64,000 nucleotides of DNA. Origin: Lentisphaera araneosa HTCC2155. GTDB taxonomy: Bacteria > Verrucomicrobiota > Lentisphaeria > Lentisphaerales > Lentisphaeraceae. The notes under the pieces are model-generated. The model was not told the DNA's origin, did no database searches, and saw only the letters and a list, made by a program, of their open reading frames with translations. Below are positions 12,048 to 48,443 of this stretch, piece after piece; the stretch's first letter is position 1; the number at the start of each line of letters is the position of its first letter. The stretch covers positions 1-64,000 of the forward strand of contig NZ_ABCK01000022.1 in NCBI RefSeq assembly GCF_000170755.1, read 5' to 3'. The translations under genes and the position numbers were made by a program.

Positions 12048-12570
12048 TTAGATTTACTTTTGAGTGCTGAAAGCACGGTATAGTACGCCTATGCGTACAC
12101 AACATCAGCGAGGTGAAAGACCTCGTCAGGGTTGACCGTCAGCCCTGTAGTCGAAGTCAACTGCGTCGTTGTGAAACGGGGTGGGTAGTAGGGCCTAGAC
12201 GAAATATCAGTCCGTAGGATGACGAACGCGTTTCGGCCGGTCAGGGTGTCGAGCCTGCTGTGTCATGGCGAAGACCAGAGAGCGGGAGGAAGAGCTGCGT
12301 AGCCTGAGGGCGAAGTAAGCCAACTGCTCAAGTTGTACACGCTGAAGAAAGACGGAAAGAAAAGCGGTGTATAAACGCTGACAGGTGATTGGTGATGGAA
12401 TGGTATGAAGATGTTGTGGATTAAGTAGGGAGACCTGTGTGGTCAGTACGGATTAATCCGCCACGCAGGAGTCAGAGCCCTCATAGTAGCGATGAAGGTG
12501 GTGAAAGCCACTGGAGCAAAGGGGGGCAGGAAGGTGAAACTGAGAAGAAAAGAATAGAAGGAATATAAGA

Positions 12571-13911
12571 ATGTCAGAAATGGCTAAACAAATATTACGA
12601 CGAGATGAACGCTTTGTTGAAATACAAGCGTGGGCGTCACCTTCTGTCTGGACGGATCAGATGCTGAAAACTCTTCATAGAGGAGTTGAAAGAGGTAAAT
12701 GGTACAGCTTATCCGATAAGTTGATGCGTAAGAATAATATCATGGAAGCTTGGGAAAAAGTCTGCTCAAATAAGGGCTCACATGGAGTGGATATGATATC
12801 AACTGAACGCTACGAGTCAGAGTTAGAACATAATAACGCTAAGCTTCTCGAAGAACTGCAAGATGGAAGGTATGATCCCCGTGCAGTGCGTCGTGTGGGA
12901 ATCCCAAAAGGAGATGGTCGAAAGACAAGACCTCTGGGAATACCCACAGTGCGTGATCGAGTAGTTCAAACAGCTCTGAAACATGTGATAGAGCCGATAT
13001 TTGATATCGACTTCTCGCCCTACAGTTTTGGATTTCGTCCAAAGCTGGGTTGCAAGGATGCACTTAGACGAGTGAATGAATTGTTAAAGCAGGGCTATCT
13101 CTATGTTATGGATGCCGACATCCAAAGCTACTTCGATACTATACCACATGAGAAACTCATGAGTCGAGTCAAGGAAAAGATCATTGATGGTAAAATTCTT
13201 GATCTGATCGAACAATTCCTCAAAGCCAATATCTTTGATGGTCTCAAACATTGGGAACCTGAAGAAGGTACACCGCAGGGAGGAATTATCAGTCCTCTGT
13301 TAGCAAATATCTATCTTGATCCCTTTGATCACAAGATGACCGAGGCTGGATTCGAGATAGTGCGCTATGCAGACGATTTCCTGATCATGTGTAAAAGTAA
13401 AGAATCAGCCAAAAGGGCATTGCGCAAAACGCGAAGGTGGATGAAAGCCAATGGGCTGAAACTTCATCCAGAAAAAACGCGAATTGCCGACATGACAGAG
13501 AAGTGCGAGTACTTCGAGTTTCTCGGATACCATTTCGAGAGAACGCGAAATACACATCGCATTAAACGTTGGCCAAGGAAGCAGAGCCTGAAGAAATGCA
13601 AAGATGCCATACGCAAGAAAACGAGGAGAAGCAATAAGGACTCAATAGAGGACATAATTGCTTACCTTCGGCCAAATCTTGTCGGATGGTATCAATACTT
13701 CAAGCACTCCACTGTGTATGCAATGCGAGGTATAGATGAATTTACACGCAGAAGACTGCGCAGCATTATAGCCAAATATAATCGCAAGAAAGGTTCTCAT
13801 CGCATGATTGATACTCGTAAATACAATAAAGCCTACTTTACAGATCTAGGCTTCTTTTCACTGGAAGAAGTTTGGAAACTGGAATTTCAGTCTCTTCGGA
13901 GTAAGCACTGA
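12571..13911 (+). CDS. ltrA: Group II intron-encoded reverse transcriptase/maturase
   Basis: 446 residues. RT blocks are all visible: KTRPLGIPTVRDRVVQ (RT2), DADIQSYFDTIPH (RT3), GTPQGGIISPLLANIYLD (RT4) and the catalytic RYADDFLIM (RT5), then GLKLHPEKT and FEFLGYHF (RT6/7). The C-terminus holds the maturase (GIIM) helix region, including LVGWYQYF. No HNH endonuclease Cys/His cluster follows, so target DNA is probably cut by reverse splicing only or primed from replication forks. It works with the surrounding intron RNA for splicing and retrohoming. The gene is complete with no frameshift, so the intron may be mobile. Confidence 0.95.
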   Translation: MSEMAKQILRRDERFVEIQAWASPSVWTDQMLKTLHRGVERGKWYSLSDKLMRKNNIMEAWEKVCSNKGSHGVDMISTERYESELEHNNAKLLEELQDGRYDPRAVRRVGIPKGDGRKTRPLGIPTVRDRVVQTALKHVIEPIFDIDFSPYSFGFRPKLGCKDALRRVNELLKQGYLYVMDADIQSYFDTIPHEKLMSRVKEKIIDGKILDLIEQFLKANIFDGLKHWEPEEGTPQGGIISPLLANIYLDPFDHKMTEAGFEIVRYADDFLIMCKSKESAKRALRKTRRWMKANGLKLHPEKTRIADMTEKCEYFEFLGYHFERTRNTHRIKRWPRKQSLKKCKDAIRKKTRRSNKDSIEDIIAYLRPNLVGWYQYFKHSTVYAMRGIDEFTRRRLRSIIAKYNRKKGSHRMIDTRKYNKAYFTDLGFFSLEEVWKLEFQSLRSKH

Positions 13912-13916
13912 CTGGA

Positions 13917-13991
13917 GAGCCGTATGCGGGAGAACCGCACGTACGGTTCGGAAGGAGGGGAGACTCCGCAAGGAGTCTTCCCTACCCTTAT
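13917..13991 (+). ncRNA. Group II intron domains V and VI
   Basis: Domain V is a 33-nt hairpin at 13917-13949 starting GAGCCGTATGCGG and ending GTACGGTTC, the most conserved catalytic piece of group II introns. Domain VI follows as a GC-rich stem around a GCAA loop at about 13957-13983 and should carry the branch-point A. The maturase stop overlaps the region just upstream. Confidence 0.85.
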
Positions 13992-18240: not shown

Positions 18241-18379
18241 AATCCCTATCTGATTTTATCCGTGGTTGAATTAATTTCTACAAAAAGCCTCTTTGCGGCG
18301 TCCACAATAGGGTGCCAATTAGCAATCGGCGCTCCTATAGTAGTCCAAGTAATTAAATAGATAAAAATAATGAGGGGGT

Positions 18380-18586
18380 CTGGGGGAGAAATTTTAGAAT
18401 TAAAAAAGGAACATATAAATTTAATCATTCTCGATACGAATCGGCGCTCCTGTCTTTTAAAGACTTTCTGGGCATTTCGACCGGGAATGTTTACCAGCGG
18501 GACGAATACTCAGAAAGCTTCAGGCACGAATGCTATAGGAATTTCGCATGCTGTTTTTTAAATCTATATATTCCCTAGGAGTAAAA
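18380..18586 (+). other. 5' non-coding end of IS110 element, possible bridge RNA locus
   Basis: About 200 bp without a gene lies directly before the IS110 transposase start. IS110-group elements express a structured bridge RNA from the non-coding end next to the transposase start, so this is where it would be. The stretch contains CGACCGGGAATGTTTACCAG and other segments that could pair, but I did not establish a fold or the element boundary. Confidence 0.3.
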
Positions 18587-19845
18587 ATGTATAATACAAG
18601 AACTAAAAATCCATCTGAATATCAAGTTATTATTGCGATCGACTGGGCTGATCAAAAACATGACCTACGAATTCTTAAGGATTGTGAAGAAGAATGTAAA
18701 GTTATCAGTAGCGATTTACTTACTCTCAAAAACTTCTTTGATACACTCATACTTGAAACTGTTAATGGTTCCATTGCCATTGTCATCGAGAGCTGTCAAT
18801 CTGCACTGATGAATTTATTAATATCATTCACAGAGTTTGATATCTATGTGGTTCATCCTACGACTGCTTCAAAGTTTGCTAAAACATTTCATTTGAGTGG
18901 TGCTAAAAGTGACCGAGCAGATACTAAATCATTACTTGAACTGTATTTAAAACATCCTGATAAAGTTCAAAAAGTAGACTCATCTTTTTCAAAGGGGAAA
19001 CTGAAGCGACTTAATATAAAAAGGCGTGATTTAGTAGGTGATAGAACTCGTTTAACTAATCAATTAACTGCGTTATTGAAGATTTATTACCCAAACGCCC
19101 TCAAAGTCGTGGGCAATCATTTATATGCAGATATGTTTCTAGACTTTTTAGATAAATATCCAAGCCCGCAGGATGTCATTAATGCTCATCAAATCGGCAT
19201 TACCAAATTCTTTAACAAACGCAGTACCAAGCATAGTAAACAAAAGAGAGAGTTCAAATATTACGCTCCTCCATAATTGTTGTTAATGATGAAGATGAGT
19301 TGGATTACTACATATTTGAGATACAACAATTCTGCCACAGAATCAGGAGTTTAAATAAGGTCATTAAAGCTTATGACGAAAAAATTGAGCAAGCTTATCG
19401 CAGTAATGAGGACTATGAAATGTTTCAATCTTTCCCAGGAGCAGGCCCTAGTATCGGCCCACGTCTTATGGCTTTCTTTGGGGGCGATCGAGATAAATTT
19501 AAGTCTGTAAATGAGGTTCTTAAAATTAGTGAAATAGCTCCTGTGACAATTCAGAGTGGAAAAATGAATATTGTCCGAAGACGTTTTTTATGTGATAGGT
19601 TCACTCAACTTAGTTTTGTGGAGTTCGCAAATAATTCCATAAGATCGTCAATATGGGCACATGAATTTTATTATCATAAGAAAGCTCTTAACATACCTCA
19701 TTTCACTATACTTAGAGCTTTGGCCTACAAATGGATTCGTATCATGTATCGCTGCTGGAAAACGAGAACTCCATATAATGAAAAGACCTATCTGGAAGTA
19801 TTGGAGAAAAGACAACCTGCATGGTTTCAGAAATTCGTTAATTAA
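18587..19845 (+). pseudogene. IS110-family (DEDD) transposase, frameshifted
   Basis: The start is the ATG at 18587 with AGGAG at 18577-18581. The first frame (to 19276) gives the RuvC-like DEDD domain: AIDWADQKHD, IVIESCQSALM and GAKSDRADTKSLLEL. A shift of one frame near 19277 is needed to reach the second part (about 19283-19845), which carries the IS116/IS110/IS902 helix-hairpin-helix block FPGAGPSIGPRLMAFFGGD and the Ser-containing C-terminal domain. Total coding length, about 415 codons, is normal. The break would inactivate it unless frameshifting occurs. The nearby target looks rich in short repeats, a common choice for IS110 elements. Confidence 0.85.
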
Positions 19846-19926
19846 CCTCGTATTCTAGTTGTAAGTGCACTCAGAAAAGCCCGGAAATTAACTTATTTTA
19901 CTGATTCATAATGAGTGACAAATATT

Positions 19927-25782: not shown

Positions 25783-27324
25783 ATGAAAAAGCTAAAGCAC
25801 ATTATCACATTTAGATCAAGTCTAGTTTTTAGTTTACTAGCGCTATTCAGTACATCTCTGATTGGAGTCGAAAAGCCAAACGTCATTGTGATCTTAGCCG
25901 ATGACCTCGGCTACTCTGATCTGGGAATCTATGGCGGAGAAATCCAAACCCCAAATATCGATCAACTAGCGCGGGAAGGTGTACGCTTTACGGGGCTAAA
26001 GAATGCCTCGCGTTGTACACCATCACGAGCTTCCTTCTTGACCGGTCGCTATTCCCATGCGGTTGGCGTGGGGGCAATGTCGAAAGATGAGAATTTACCC
26101 GCTTATCGCGGTCAGCTCTCCGCCGATGCACCGACCATCGCAGAAATCATGAAAGCGCAAGGCTATGCGACGGGCATTGTCGGCAAATGGCATCAGACCT
26201 ATACCGGCAAGTCGAAACAAAAAGCGCTGTACCCTCTGGATCGCGGTTTCGACTTTTTTTACGGCACTTGGTGGGGAGCGAAGGATTACTTTAGCCCGAA
26301 ATTCATGATGAAGAATGATGAACACATACCCGATAGTACTAAATACCCAGATGACTTTTATCTAACTCACGCGCTATCGGATTCTGCGATTGAATTTGTT
26401 GAAGCGCAGAATGAGCAGAAGAACCCCTTCTTTTTGTACCTCGCTCATTATGCACCTCATGCGCCGATTCAGGCTCCTAAAGAAAGAATCCAAAAATGTG
26501 TTGAGCGTTATAAAGCCGGTTTTGTGAAACTCCAACAGGAGCGATTTGAACGTCAGAAAAAATTAGGCGTAGCGCCTAATAATGCCACTCTTCGCGATCA
26601 AACTAATAATTGGAATAGACTCAGTGAGAAAGATAAAGACGCATGGATAAATACCATGGCAACCTATGCAGCTATGATTGAAATTATGGATGATGGCATC
26701 GGTGAACTATTTGATGTCTTGAAGAAGAATGGTCAATACGATAATACTTTGATCTTATTTTTAAGTGATAATGGCTCGACTCCTGAGCACAAAGGAAAAA
26801 GGTCAGCAGCTCTTCTTTGTTCTGCACTCAGTAATACGCCATTCAACGGATTTAAGGCCCATGCACTTGAAGGAGGAATAGCTTCGCCACTCATTGTCAG
26901 CTGGCCAAAGCAACTTGCGGAACACGCAAATCAAATTCGTCATGGTCACTGCCATATTATCGATATCTTGCCCACTTGTCTGGAAGCAACTGGGATCAAT
27001 TTCCCCGAGTCATATAAAGGGCTAACTCCAGTGCAGCCGGATGGCATAAGCTTGATGGCTGCGGTAAAAGGAAAAGAATTAGAAAAGCGCACATTCTTTT
27101 GGGAACACCATCAAAGTCGGGCTGTTTATCAAGATGGCTGGAAATTAGTTGCAGATAAAGGTCCATGGAAACTTTATAACCTGAACAATGACCCAGGAGA
27201 AAAATCCGATTTGTCTAAGCAGTACCCGGAAAGAACTGAAGAACTTAAAGCGATGTGGACAAAATGGGGCACAGATTACGGCGTGATTCGCGTACCATCA
27301 AATAAGAAGAAGAAAAAGAAATAA
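25783..27324 (+). CDS. Exported sulfatase, FGly type (CTPSR)
   Basis: 513 residues with a signal peptide ending near LFSTSLIG. Metal-binding N-terminus NVIVILADDLGYSDLG, activation motif CTPSRASFLTGR with the Cys converted to formylglycine, GKWHQ with catalytic Lys/His, and FLSDNGSTPEH for the C-terminal metal ligands. It belongs with arylsulfatase-A-like S1 enzymes; the substrate subfamily cannot be fixed by eye. The C-terminus is an NKKKKKK tail. The sulfatase at 34891 is a close paralogue, sharing a long block (WWGAKDYFSPKFMMKN) almost unchanged. It needs a formylglycine-generating enzyme; the only SUMF1-type gene here is damaged, so a true maturase must lie elsewhere. Confidence 0.93.
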   Translation: MKKLKHIITFRSSLVFSLLALFSTSLIGVEKPNVIVILADDLGYSDLGIYGGEIQTPNIDQLAREGVRFTGLKNASRCTPSRASFLTGRYSHAVGVGAMSKDENLPAYRGQLSADAPTIAEIMKAQGYATGIVGKWHQTYTGKSKQKALYPLDRGFDFFYGTWWGAKDYFSPKFMMKNDEHIPDSTKYPDDFYLTHALSDSAIEFVEAQNEQKNPFFLYLAHYAPHAPIQAPKERIQKCVERYKAGFVKLQQERFERQKKLGVAPNNATLRDQTNNWNRLSEKDKDAWINTMATYAAMIEIMDDGIGELFDVLKKNGQYDNTLILFLSDNGSTPEHKGKRSAALLCSALSNTPFNGFKAHALEGGIASPLIVSWPKQLAEHANQIRHGHCHIIDILPTCLEATGINFPESYKGLTPVQPDGISLMAAVKGKELEKRTFFWEHHQSRAVYQDGWKLVADKGPWKLYNLNNDPGEKSDLSKQYPERTEELKAMWTKWGTDYGVIRVPSNKKKKKK

Positions 27325-27336
27325 AGACGCTCTTGG

Positions 27337-27521
27337 GCGCACCGCCGGCGCTCCCAAGAGAAGTTTGGCAACGTGAATATTGGGATCGTTTTATACGTAA
27401 TGAGAATCATTTTTTAAAGGCTATAGAGTACATTCATCAAAACCCGGTGAAGGCCGGTTTATGTACCAGTGCGGAAGAGTGGCTGTGGTCGAGTGCTTAT
27501 AAAAGTAACACGAGTGAGTGA
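27337..27521 (+). pseudogene. Truncated RAYT transposase copy (C-terminal piece)
   Basis: Codes for VWQREYWDRFIRNENHFLKA, then IEYIHQNPVKAGL, nearly identical in DNA to the end of the intact RAYT at 47535-48236. The homology begins inside a REP sequence (CGCCGGCGCTCCCA at 27346-27359), at the same point where a REP lies within the intact gene. HUH and N-terminal parts are absent, so this is a remnant carried with its REP-rich 3' flank. Confidence 0.85.
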
Positions 27522-27576: not shown

Positions 27577-27740
27577 TGCCGGCGAGTCGCCAGCGCTCCC
27601 GTGTGTTTTCGTGTTTAAAAAACTTAGATCTTAATTTATGTATGCCGGCGGGTCGCCAGCGCTCCCAAGTGAGCATGCAATGGAGTACTCATGCCGGCGG
27701 GTCGCCAGCGCTCCCAAGTGAGCATGCAATGGAGTACAGA
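27577..27740 (-). repeat. Three REP hairpins downstream of the RAYT remnant
   Basis: REP units on the minus strand at 27577-27600, 27643-27666 and 27692-27715 (ATGCCGGCGGGTCGCCAGCG core). The last two are part of a roughly 49-bp tandem duplication (GTGAGCATGCAATGGAGTAC follows each). The flank AACTTAGATCTTAATTTATG before the second REP recurs at 48345-48364, so this locus copied the downstream side of the intact RAYT locus. 27741-27844 holds no gene. Confidence 0.85.
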
Positions 27741-46982: not shown

Positions 46983-47509
46983 GGGAGCGCCGGCGACCCG
47001 CCGGAATTGTGATTTTAAATATCTCACCTAAATGGGAGCGCCGGTGACCCGCCGGCCTATTTAAAAGTAAGCATAATGGGAGCGCCGGCGACCCGCCGGC
47101 ATAAATAAAAAAGCAAGCATAATGGGAGCGCCGGCGACCCGCCGGCATAATATTACATGTGCGTCTGCGACCCGCCTCATTGTGATTTTTAAGACCTCAC
47201 CTAAATGGGAGCGCCAGCGACCCGCCGGCATAAAACACAAAAAACATACCTCAAACCATATTTTATTTGCATTAGATAACACTAAGTAAGAAATTTAAAT
47301 GCGACCCGCCGCCATATATAAAAAAGTAAGCATAATGGGAGCGCCAGCGACTCGCCGGCAGATATGAAAAGTAAGCATAATGGAAGAGCCGGCGACCCGC
47401 CGGCATAAAAAAAACTTATACTCACACACTATATTTATTTGCATTACAAAACACTAAGTAAGAACTTCAAATGGCGCGCTTACATGGGAGCGCCGGCGAC
47501 TCGCCGGCA
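46983..47509 (+). repeat. REP array upstream of RAYT, about ten units
   Basis: Plus-strand units of GGGAGCGCCGGCGACCCG / CCGGCATAA at about 46983, 47034, 47078, 47123, 47161 (partial), 47207, 47301 (partial), 47337, 47380 and 47486. Each has a GCCGGCG-ACC-CGCCGGC hairpin preceded by GGAG, the tetranucleotide style recognised by RAYT proteins. Many are embedded in a longer unit with TAAGCATAAT before the hairpin. The block has no genes of its own. Confidence 0.93.
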
Positions 47510-47534
47510 TGATAATGCAAATAAGGGGGAAAGA

Positions 47535-48236
47535 ATGAGAGAAGAATTTAAAAATAGCGAGGCTTGGTTTAGCCGGGATTATTTACCTCATTACGATGTG
47601 GCGAATAAATACCAAATGCTGACTTATCGCTTAGCGGATTCTCTTCCAAAGCAAGTTCTCCTTACAATCACTCATAGCGCCGGCACCTCGCCGATATATG
47701 ATAAGAAAGTTATGCATGATGGGAGCGCTAGCGACCCGCCGGCATACGAGAACATGACCCCACAAGAAAAAATAAAATACTCTCAAATAGTGGAACAATA
47801 TCTCGACAAGGGCTATGGCTCATGCCTTCTCAAAGATTCGCGCAATGCGCAAATAGTGCTAGATACATGGAAATTTTTTGATAGCGATCGCTATGACCTT
47901 ATTGCCTACGTAGTGATGCCCAATCATGTGCATGTTTTGATCAAGACTTACGAGGGCTGGCCCATAGCAAAAGTACTACATTCTTGGAAAAGTTATACGG
48001 CGAAAGAAATTTTAAAGAATGAACATGAAGAGGGTTCGAGTACTCATGCCGGCGGGTCGCCAGCGCTCCCAAATAAAGTTTGGCAACGTGAATATTGGGA
48101 TCGTTTTATACGTAATGAGAATCATTTTTTAAAGGCTATAGAATACATTCATCAAAACCCGGTGAAGGCCGGTTTATGTGCCAATGCGGAAGAGTGGCTG
48201 TGGTCCAGCGTACATAGATTTAATAAGCTGAAGTAA
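47535..48236 (+). CDS. rayT: REP-associated tyrosine transposase (RAYT, Y1/HUH family) containing REP-derived peptides
   Basis: 233 residues from the ATG at 47535 (GGGGGAAAG ribosome site); the frame is open further upstream only through a REP. HUH motif in MPNHVHVLIK, catalytic Tyr candidate in IEYIHQNPVKAGL, and WQREYWDRFIRNENHF and WLWSS typical of RAYTs. Three REP sequences lie inside the coding frame: at 47675-47695 (SAGTSP), 47720-47744 (GSASDPPA) and, inverted, 48046-48070 (HAGGSPALP). The protein would nick and move REP units flanking it. A truncated copy is at 27337. It is probably functional since the frame is intact, but the inserts could affect folding. Confidence 0.9.
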   Translation: MREEFKNSEAWFSRDYLPHYDVANKYQMLTYRLADSLPKQVLLTITHSAGTSPIYDKKVMHDGSASDPPAYENMTPQEKIKYSQIVEQYLDKGYGSCLLKDSRNAQIVLDTWKFFDSDRYDLIAYVVMPNHVHVLIKTYEGWPIAKVLHSWKSYTAKEILKNEHEEGSSTHAGGSPALPNKVWQREYWDRFIRNENHFLKAIEYIHQNPVKAGLCANAEEWLWSSVHRFNKLK

Positions 48237-48300
48237 TCGGCGAGTCTTGTGAAGAATTATCTTAGAGACAGGGACATGTAAATCGGGATAGGTTTATTTA

Positions 48301-48443
48301 TGCCGGTGGGTCGCCAGCGCTCCCATGCTTTTTTTGTGGTTAAAACTTAGATCTTAATTTACGTATGCCGGCGGGTCGCCAGCGCTCCTAAGTGAACACG
48401 AAGAGTTATCGAATTTTAATGCCGGCGGGTCGCCGGCGCTCCT
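48301..48443 (-). repeat. Inverted REP units downstream of RAYT
   Basis: Three minus-strand REPs at 48301-48325, 48365-48389 and 48421-48443 (GCCGGCGGGTCGCCAGCGCT style). Upstream units point the other way, so the RAYT gene is bracketed by oppositely oriented REPs. The last lies 12 nt from the end of the anti-sigma gene and may act as a transcription barrier between the convergent genes. Confidence 0.92.

Follow-up and report, generated by a model that had tools for sequence, protein, structure and literature searches.

In REPtrons, as RAYT/REP systems are called (Nunvar 2010, PMC2817692; Corneloup 2021, PMC8266576), the gene of a Y1 HUH protein stands between inverted sets of its own REPs. 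The locus of Lentisphaera araneosa HTCC2155 described here is built likewise, but its REPs lie within the gene too, and the REP head is GGGAGC instead of GT(A/G)G. Because of this head, the Lentisphaera RAYT was not filed with the GTAG-type RAYTs (groups 2 and 3), in which GT(A/G)G stands beside the palindrome. According to the main text of Di Nocera 2013 (PMC3733652), GTAG/CGTC REPs occur within ORFs and are read in frame, e.g. in Opitutus terrae and R. conorii; the hosts named in that main text are repair, replication and RNA genes, not RAYT genes, and it describes no recurrent pair of loops. The same text treats the Rickettsia palindromic elements (RPE), palindromic repeats found in frame in many proteins, which it ties to CGTC repeats and reports without association to transposase genes. 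Their likeness to the present case is one of kind, and in Lentisphaera, unlike in RPE, the repeat presumably owes its movement to the protein that hosts it. A literature search of the accessible main texts returned no description of REPs within RAYT genes, nor of RAYTs that recurrently carry their own REPs at fixed loops. REPs inside genes are already known; their recurrence in the RAYT's own gene at two fixed loops is, as far as searched, apparently undescribed. The best explanation overall, which we consider likely, is that the RAYT gene has taken up copies of its own left and right REPs, in frame, where it encodes two surface loops.

The window, i.e., the whole stretch of DNA analysed (64,000 nucleotides), contains a RAYT gene whose 233-residue product matches Pfam Y1_Tnp (1.5e-8) and scores 97.4 bits against the NCBIfam equivalog REP_Tyr_transpos (NF047646; cut-off 80). 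In line with NF047646, the gene is bracketed by cognate REPs in inverted orientation (ten + upstream, three - downstream). The best Foldseek match is 4er8, E. coli TnpA-REP in complex with a REP hairpin (E 2.4e-8). The HUH motif reads H131-V-H133, and the candidate catalytic Tyr154 lies within helix 144-165; in some RAYT paralogues the candidate tyrosine is replaced by Phe or His. Two loops bracket the catalytic core, the N-loop (about residues 47-75) and the C-loop (about residues 166-182), which together make up 27% of the residues. The reading frame has no internal stop. The nearest relatives of the window include Lentisphaera marina, a member of the same genus; comparison with its gene gave a dN/dS of 0.10 (dS about 1.0), and the window's RAYT gene is, judged by these substitution rates, under purifying selection. 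In two paralogous RAYTs, L058 (G000:C15) and L004 (G000:C6), one and the same conserved Trp codon close to the N-terminus is replaced by a stop (TAG, TGA).

REPs were searched in the 64-kb window with the 24-mer GGGAGCGCCGGCGACYCGCCGGCA, allowing up to three mismatches, which yielded 16 matches, compared with none in 100 dinucleotide shuffles. The features of the locus are as follows.

46983-47006, + strand: upstream REP, left type (24-mer search)
47034-47057, + strand: upstream REP (24-mer search)
47078-47101, + strand: upstream REP, consensus (24-mer search)
47124-47147, + strand: upstream REP, consensus (24-mer search)
47161-47176, + strand: upstream REP, degenerate
47207-47230, + strand: upstream REP (24-mer search)
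47301-47315, + strand: upstream half REP GCGACCCGCCGCCAT, degenerate, adjoining a 40-bp stretch duplicated at 47434
47337-47360, + strand: upstream REP (24-mer search)
47382-47405, + strand: upstream REP (24-mer search)
47486-47509, + strand: upstream REP directly ahead of the start codon (24-mer search)
47535-48236, + strand: RAYT gene, Y1/HUH REP-associated tyrosine transposase, 233 aa (ATG 47535, stop 48234-48236)
47676-47693, + strand: in-gene REP 1, degenerate, N-loop, peptide SAGTSP (18-mer core, 2 mismatches)
47721-47744, + strand: in-gene REP 2, N-loop, peptide GSASDPPA, decayed hairpin GCTAGC (2 mismatches)
48047-48070, - strand: in-gene REP 3, C-loop, peptide HAGGSPALP, intact, right type GCTGGC (1 mismatch)
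48301-48324, - strand: downstream REP, right type GCTGGC (24-mer search)
48366-48389, - strand: downstream REP, right type (24-mer search)
48420-48443, - strand: downstream REP (24-mer search)

The pattern searches thus bear out the first-pass annotation as to the ten REPs upstream in one orientation (two of them degenerate), the three downstream in the other, and the three within the open frame, which encode the peptides listed and leave the frame open throughout. Its description of the in-gene REPs as hairpin units holds for the C-loop copy, which is intact, identical in L. marina and oriented opposite to the gene, but not for the two N-loop copies, both of which have decayed as hairpins. 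Only the 18-mer core, with two mismatches allowed, detected the copy at 47676; for this core, 0.06 chance matches are expected per window. The copy at 47721 has GCTAGC where L. marina retains GCCGGC, and single-stranded folding gave -3.4 kcal/mol, compared with -9.8 for the consensus, so that the REP hairpin is lost. Amid the upstream REPs, a 40-bp direct duplication (47262-47301 and 47434-47473, 90% identical) may belong to a longer repeat unit.

In the window and L. marina taken together, REPs in + orientation mostly carry GCCGGC (left, upstream) and those in - orientation mostly GCTGGC (right, downstream); the T subtype makes up 8 of 9 - REPs and 1 of 11 + REPs (p 0.0009). The C-loop REP is of the right subtype in both species, and the N-loop REP is of the left subtype in L. 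marina, its counterpart in the window being the decayed GCTAGC. These subtypes support local spread from the neighbouring array. We suggest that the RAYT, acting on single-stranded DNA hairpins, would copy REPs over the short distance between the flanking arrays and its gene, into the latter.

Breakpoints in related copies coincide with in-gene REPs. The window holds a second RAYT, with its own REPs.

27294-27509, + strand: second RAYT, C-terminal fragment, 72% identical, starting inside its own C-loop REP
27577-27715, - strand: three right-type REPs (27577, 27643, 27692) downstream of the RAYT fragment

On the downstream side, this fragment and the L. marina RAYT share homologous flanking sequence. 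The L. marina gene starts at its N-loop REP (L160 6900-9000), which is adjoined by a group II intron (Rfam RF00029; RVT_1, GIIM) and an IS110 element; the N-terminal part of the RAYT was not found upstream within the stretch examined. The L160 intron is flanked on both sides by a 43-bp duplication consisting of a REP plus 19 bases. The window has counterparts at 12146-13991 and 18312-19889, namely a related group II intron and an IS110-type element with 90% identity, and the end of the IS110-type element abuts the REP-head-like GGCGCTCC at about 18328.

Comparison was extended to some 95 RAYT loci spread over many phyla and to a second sample of 25 from the window's phylum, about 120 in total; as these loci share ancestry, locus counts are not event counts. 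Of the in-gene REPs that match their flanks at 0.8 or more, 31 out of 34 fall within the N-loop or C-loop; the last three stem from tandem gene copies that were merged in the scan (L086, L117). In the second sample 7 of the 25 RAYTs carry in-gene REPs, every one in the N-loop or C-loop. The arrangement is recurrent rather than a one-off accident, because relatives in many phyla carry REPs in the same two loops. It is also not required, because most RAYTs of the group lack an in-gene REP (e.g., L072, L073, L106, L120); L171 has flanking REPs of a GAGCTC type and none in its C-loop. In the comparison with RAYTs without inserts that the first-pass annotation had proposed, the C-loop, measured from the helix of the candidate catalytic tyrosine to the W-x-x-x-YWDR strand, had a median length of 30 residues with a REP and 17 without (p 9e-11), 17 residues being the length in most of the RAYTs that have no REP there.

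In-gene palindromes from 23 loci showed an identity of 0.946 to their own flanks and of 0.543 to those of a different RAYT locus, with a maximum of 0.665 in 2000 permutations of the cognate match; in E. coli rayT no 11-mer is common to the gene and its flanks. In a tree from which the loop columns had been left out, and many forks of which are weak, the presence of a C-loop REP changed at least 15 times and that of an N-loop REP at least 6 times. The inserts are cognate REPs, confined to two loops and gained and lost repeatedly across many phyla. The cleanest case is the N-loop of L094, where a whole inverted REP doublet lies in frame and wholly within the ORF, giving 54 residues compared with 30 in the sister L120 without the doublet (97% support). 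Such inverted doublets are known as REPINs (Bertels and Rainey 2011, PMC3116915). Chance resemblance of GC-rich coding sequence to REPs, for which the copy at 47676 might speak if taken alone, has next to no credence left: it is refuted by the shuffles, by the cognate match and by the insertion relative to the empty sister site in L094/L120. REPINs are mostly extragenic, whereas the L094 doublet is read as protein.

Two stricter rules did not survive the comparison. A fixed orientation, the N-loop REP with the gene and the C-loop REP against it, applies in the Lentisphaeraceae only and is broken outside that family (L090, L094, L100, L178, L179, L195). The Arg-rich third reading frame is rare (1/37), yet it is used in L178 and L195, which leaves a bias rather than a rule. 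In L178 the N-loop has four tandem REPs encoding an Arg-rich peptide, with one more REP in the C-loop. Four further RAYTs (L153, L155, L003, L149) have a second REP type, GGGAGC with CCGCATTC or CCGCTCTC palindromes, which is read in another frame and occurs in up to three tandem copies per C-loop.

The view that the inserts are residues common to all homologues irrespective of REPs, which would have contradicted the first-pass annotation, was ruled out, since the inserted peptide varies with the locus's own REP: in the C-loop it reads AGGSPALP in the window and L. marina, AGETPALP in L058, AGEPPALP in L060, AGRMPALP in L064 and AGWQPAIP in L146. One clade is an exception, in that its peptide SFTGRWAxxHNxELxLGxP (the RW clade) outlives the hairpin; this peptide is probably a fossil insert. 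That it has the same length with and without a hairpin would also suit an origin of the REP from the gene, in which a native palindromic coding stretch, NAELELGVPG, became a REP copied by the RAYT. We regard this as very improbable, considering that a GGGAnC head is common to the REPs of RAYTs without an in-gene copy, that unrelated in-gene REP sequences fill the same loop elsewhere, and that the C-loop of the RW clade exceeds the 17-residue state by about 6-8 residues, near the length of one REP.

The structure prediction suggested in the first-pass annotation points to the reason why insertions survive. An AlphaFold2 model run on 35 homologues assigned low confidence to the REP-coded stretches and high confidence to the core (pLDDT about 51 for residues 51-70, 61-74 for residues 161-180 and 95-98 for the core). 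Of 141 distinct REPs, 79% are stop-free in all six frames, compared with 55% of shuffled REPs and 11% of window DNA. Under the preferred reading, the survivors among new insertions would be those that keep the frame in a disordered loop, aided by REPs being stop-free in most frames.

Elsewhere in the genome (6,023,180 bases in 81 contigs), a census by pattern searches found 57 REP matches, of which 13 lie in real ORFs of five genes: seven in three RAYTs, five in an RHS-repeat protein and one in the tail of an ABC ATPase. REP-derived peptides, which the first-pass annotation had proposed to look for in other proteins, were thus found in two other RAYTs and in these two further proteins, and its idea that the element spreads into coding DNA stands, although to the limited extent of these five genes. 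The RHS-repeat protein (1999 aa; L055 24-6023; G000:C6:131523-137522) has five in-frame REPs, all read as GxAGxSPAS (GSAGGSPAS and variants); most of the REP sites fall on gaps in its homologues L166 and L167, the latter bearing different, likewise REP-like peptides at two of them. The C-terminal tail of the ABC ATPase (L061 1705-3525) looks built of REP-derived peptides, and a relative (L161 2584-3017) has five REP-like palindromes in the matching tail region.

These comparable in-frame REPs in RHS and ABC proteins, together with the loop-only placement, the low pLDDT of the loops and the decaying N-loop copies, are what one would expect if REPs were neutral selfish insertions that land anywhere, are spared by purifying selection only in disordered loops and then drift. 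This explanation, which we hold to be a tentative one at somewhat below even chances, has to face two observations: synonymous codons within the REP drift less than the rest of the gene, and in-gene palindromes follow the current flanking type. Regarding codon identity, five divergent pairs sharing an in-gene REP were compared, with p values uncorrected for codon bias or horizontal transfer. In the pair of the Desulfogranum marinum gene L086 with L110, 8 of 8 codons within the REP are identical, compared with 34% of same-residue codons outside (p 0.0003); identity within the REP also exceeds that outside in L129/L070 (p 0.0005) and L060/L144 (p 0.0056), whereas the test is borderline for L001/L063 (p 0.05) and not significant for L003/L155 (p 0.19). 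Across the five pairs, 34-68% of codons outside the REP are identical, and nearly all of those inside. Regarding flanking type, L178 shares the C-loop insert and has both sides of its stem altered (GAG/CTC to AAG/CTT), as in its flanks, and L091 and L104, whose flanking REPs are mainly of another type, retain the peptide and have lost the hairpin.

Because REP codons are conserved beyond the peptide in three of the five pairs, the palindrome is apparently maintained or renewed and not just tolerated. The tolerated in-frame loop insert of the first-pass annotation is accordingly upheld as to the insert, by the AlphaFold2 model, the loop lengths and the empty site, while 'tolerated' is an incomplete description. 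The codon patterns and the agreement with the flanking type would fit upkeep of the palindrome by the RAYT, by selection or by renewal alike. One form of this would be a selected regulatory site: the gene would curb its own product, either through binding of the RAYT to the hairpin in its gene or mRNA or through slower transcription or translation at the hairpin. The codon conservation in the first four pairs agrees with it, as do the decayed hairpins of L091 and L104 and the strand-specific binding of single-stranded REP hairpins by TnpA-REP (PMC8266576); we nevertheless find it rather unlikely, since most group members have no in-gene REP, homogenisation with the flanking REPs predicts equal conservation, and the window's N-loop copies have decayed. 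Equally doubtful is the broader proposal that many RAYT systems maintain in-gene REPs as one of their parts, with a recognition hairpin fixed beside the catalytic helix, for self-limitation or as the inner end of a mobile unit, and changing with REP specificity. According to the insertion model that we prefer, the palindrome would persist where the RAYT still recognises the hairpin, by renewal or gene conversion from the flanks or by regulatory binding; once the REP type of a RAYT changes, the in-gene hairpin would decay and leave a fossil peptide.

With its in-frame insertions and an empty sister site, this is a REP system caught writing repeats into its own coding sequence. The long-standing question whether RAYTs truly move REPs thereby becomes testable from sequence. 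Loci with the same peptide with and without the hairpin are natural experiments on a regulatory role, and the case shows how selfish hairpins can turn into loops of a protein.
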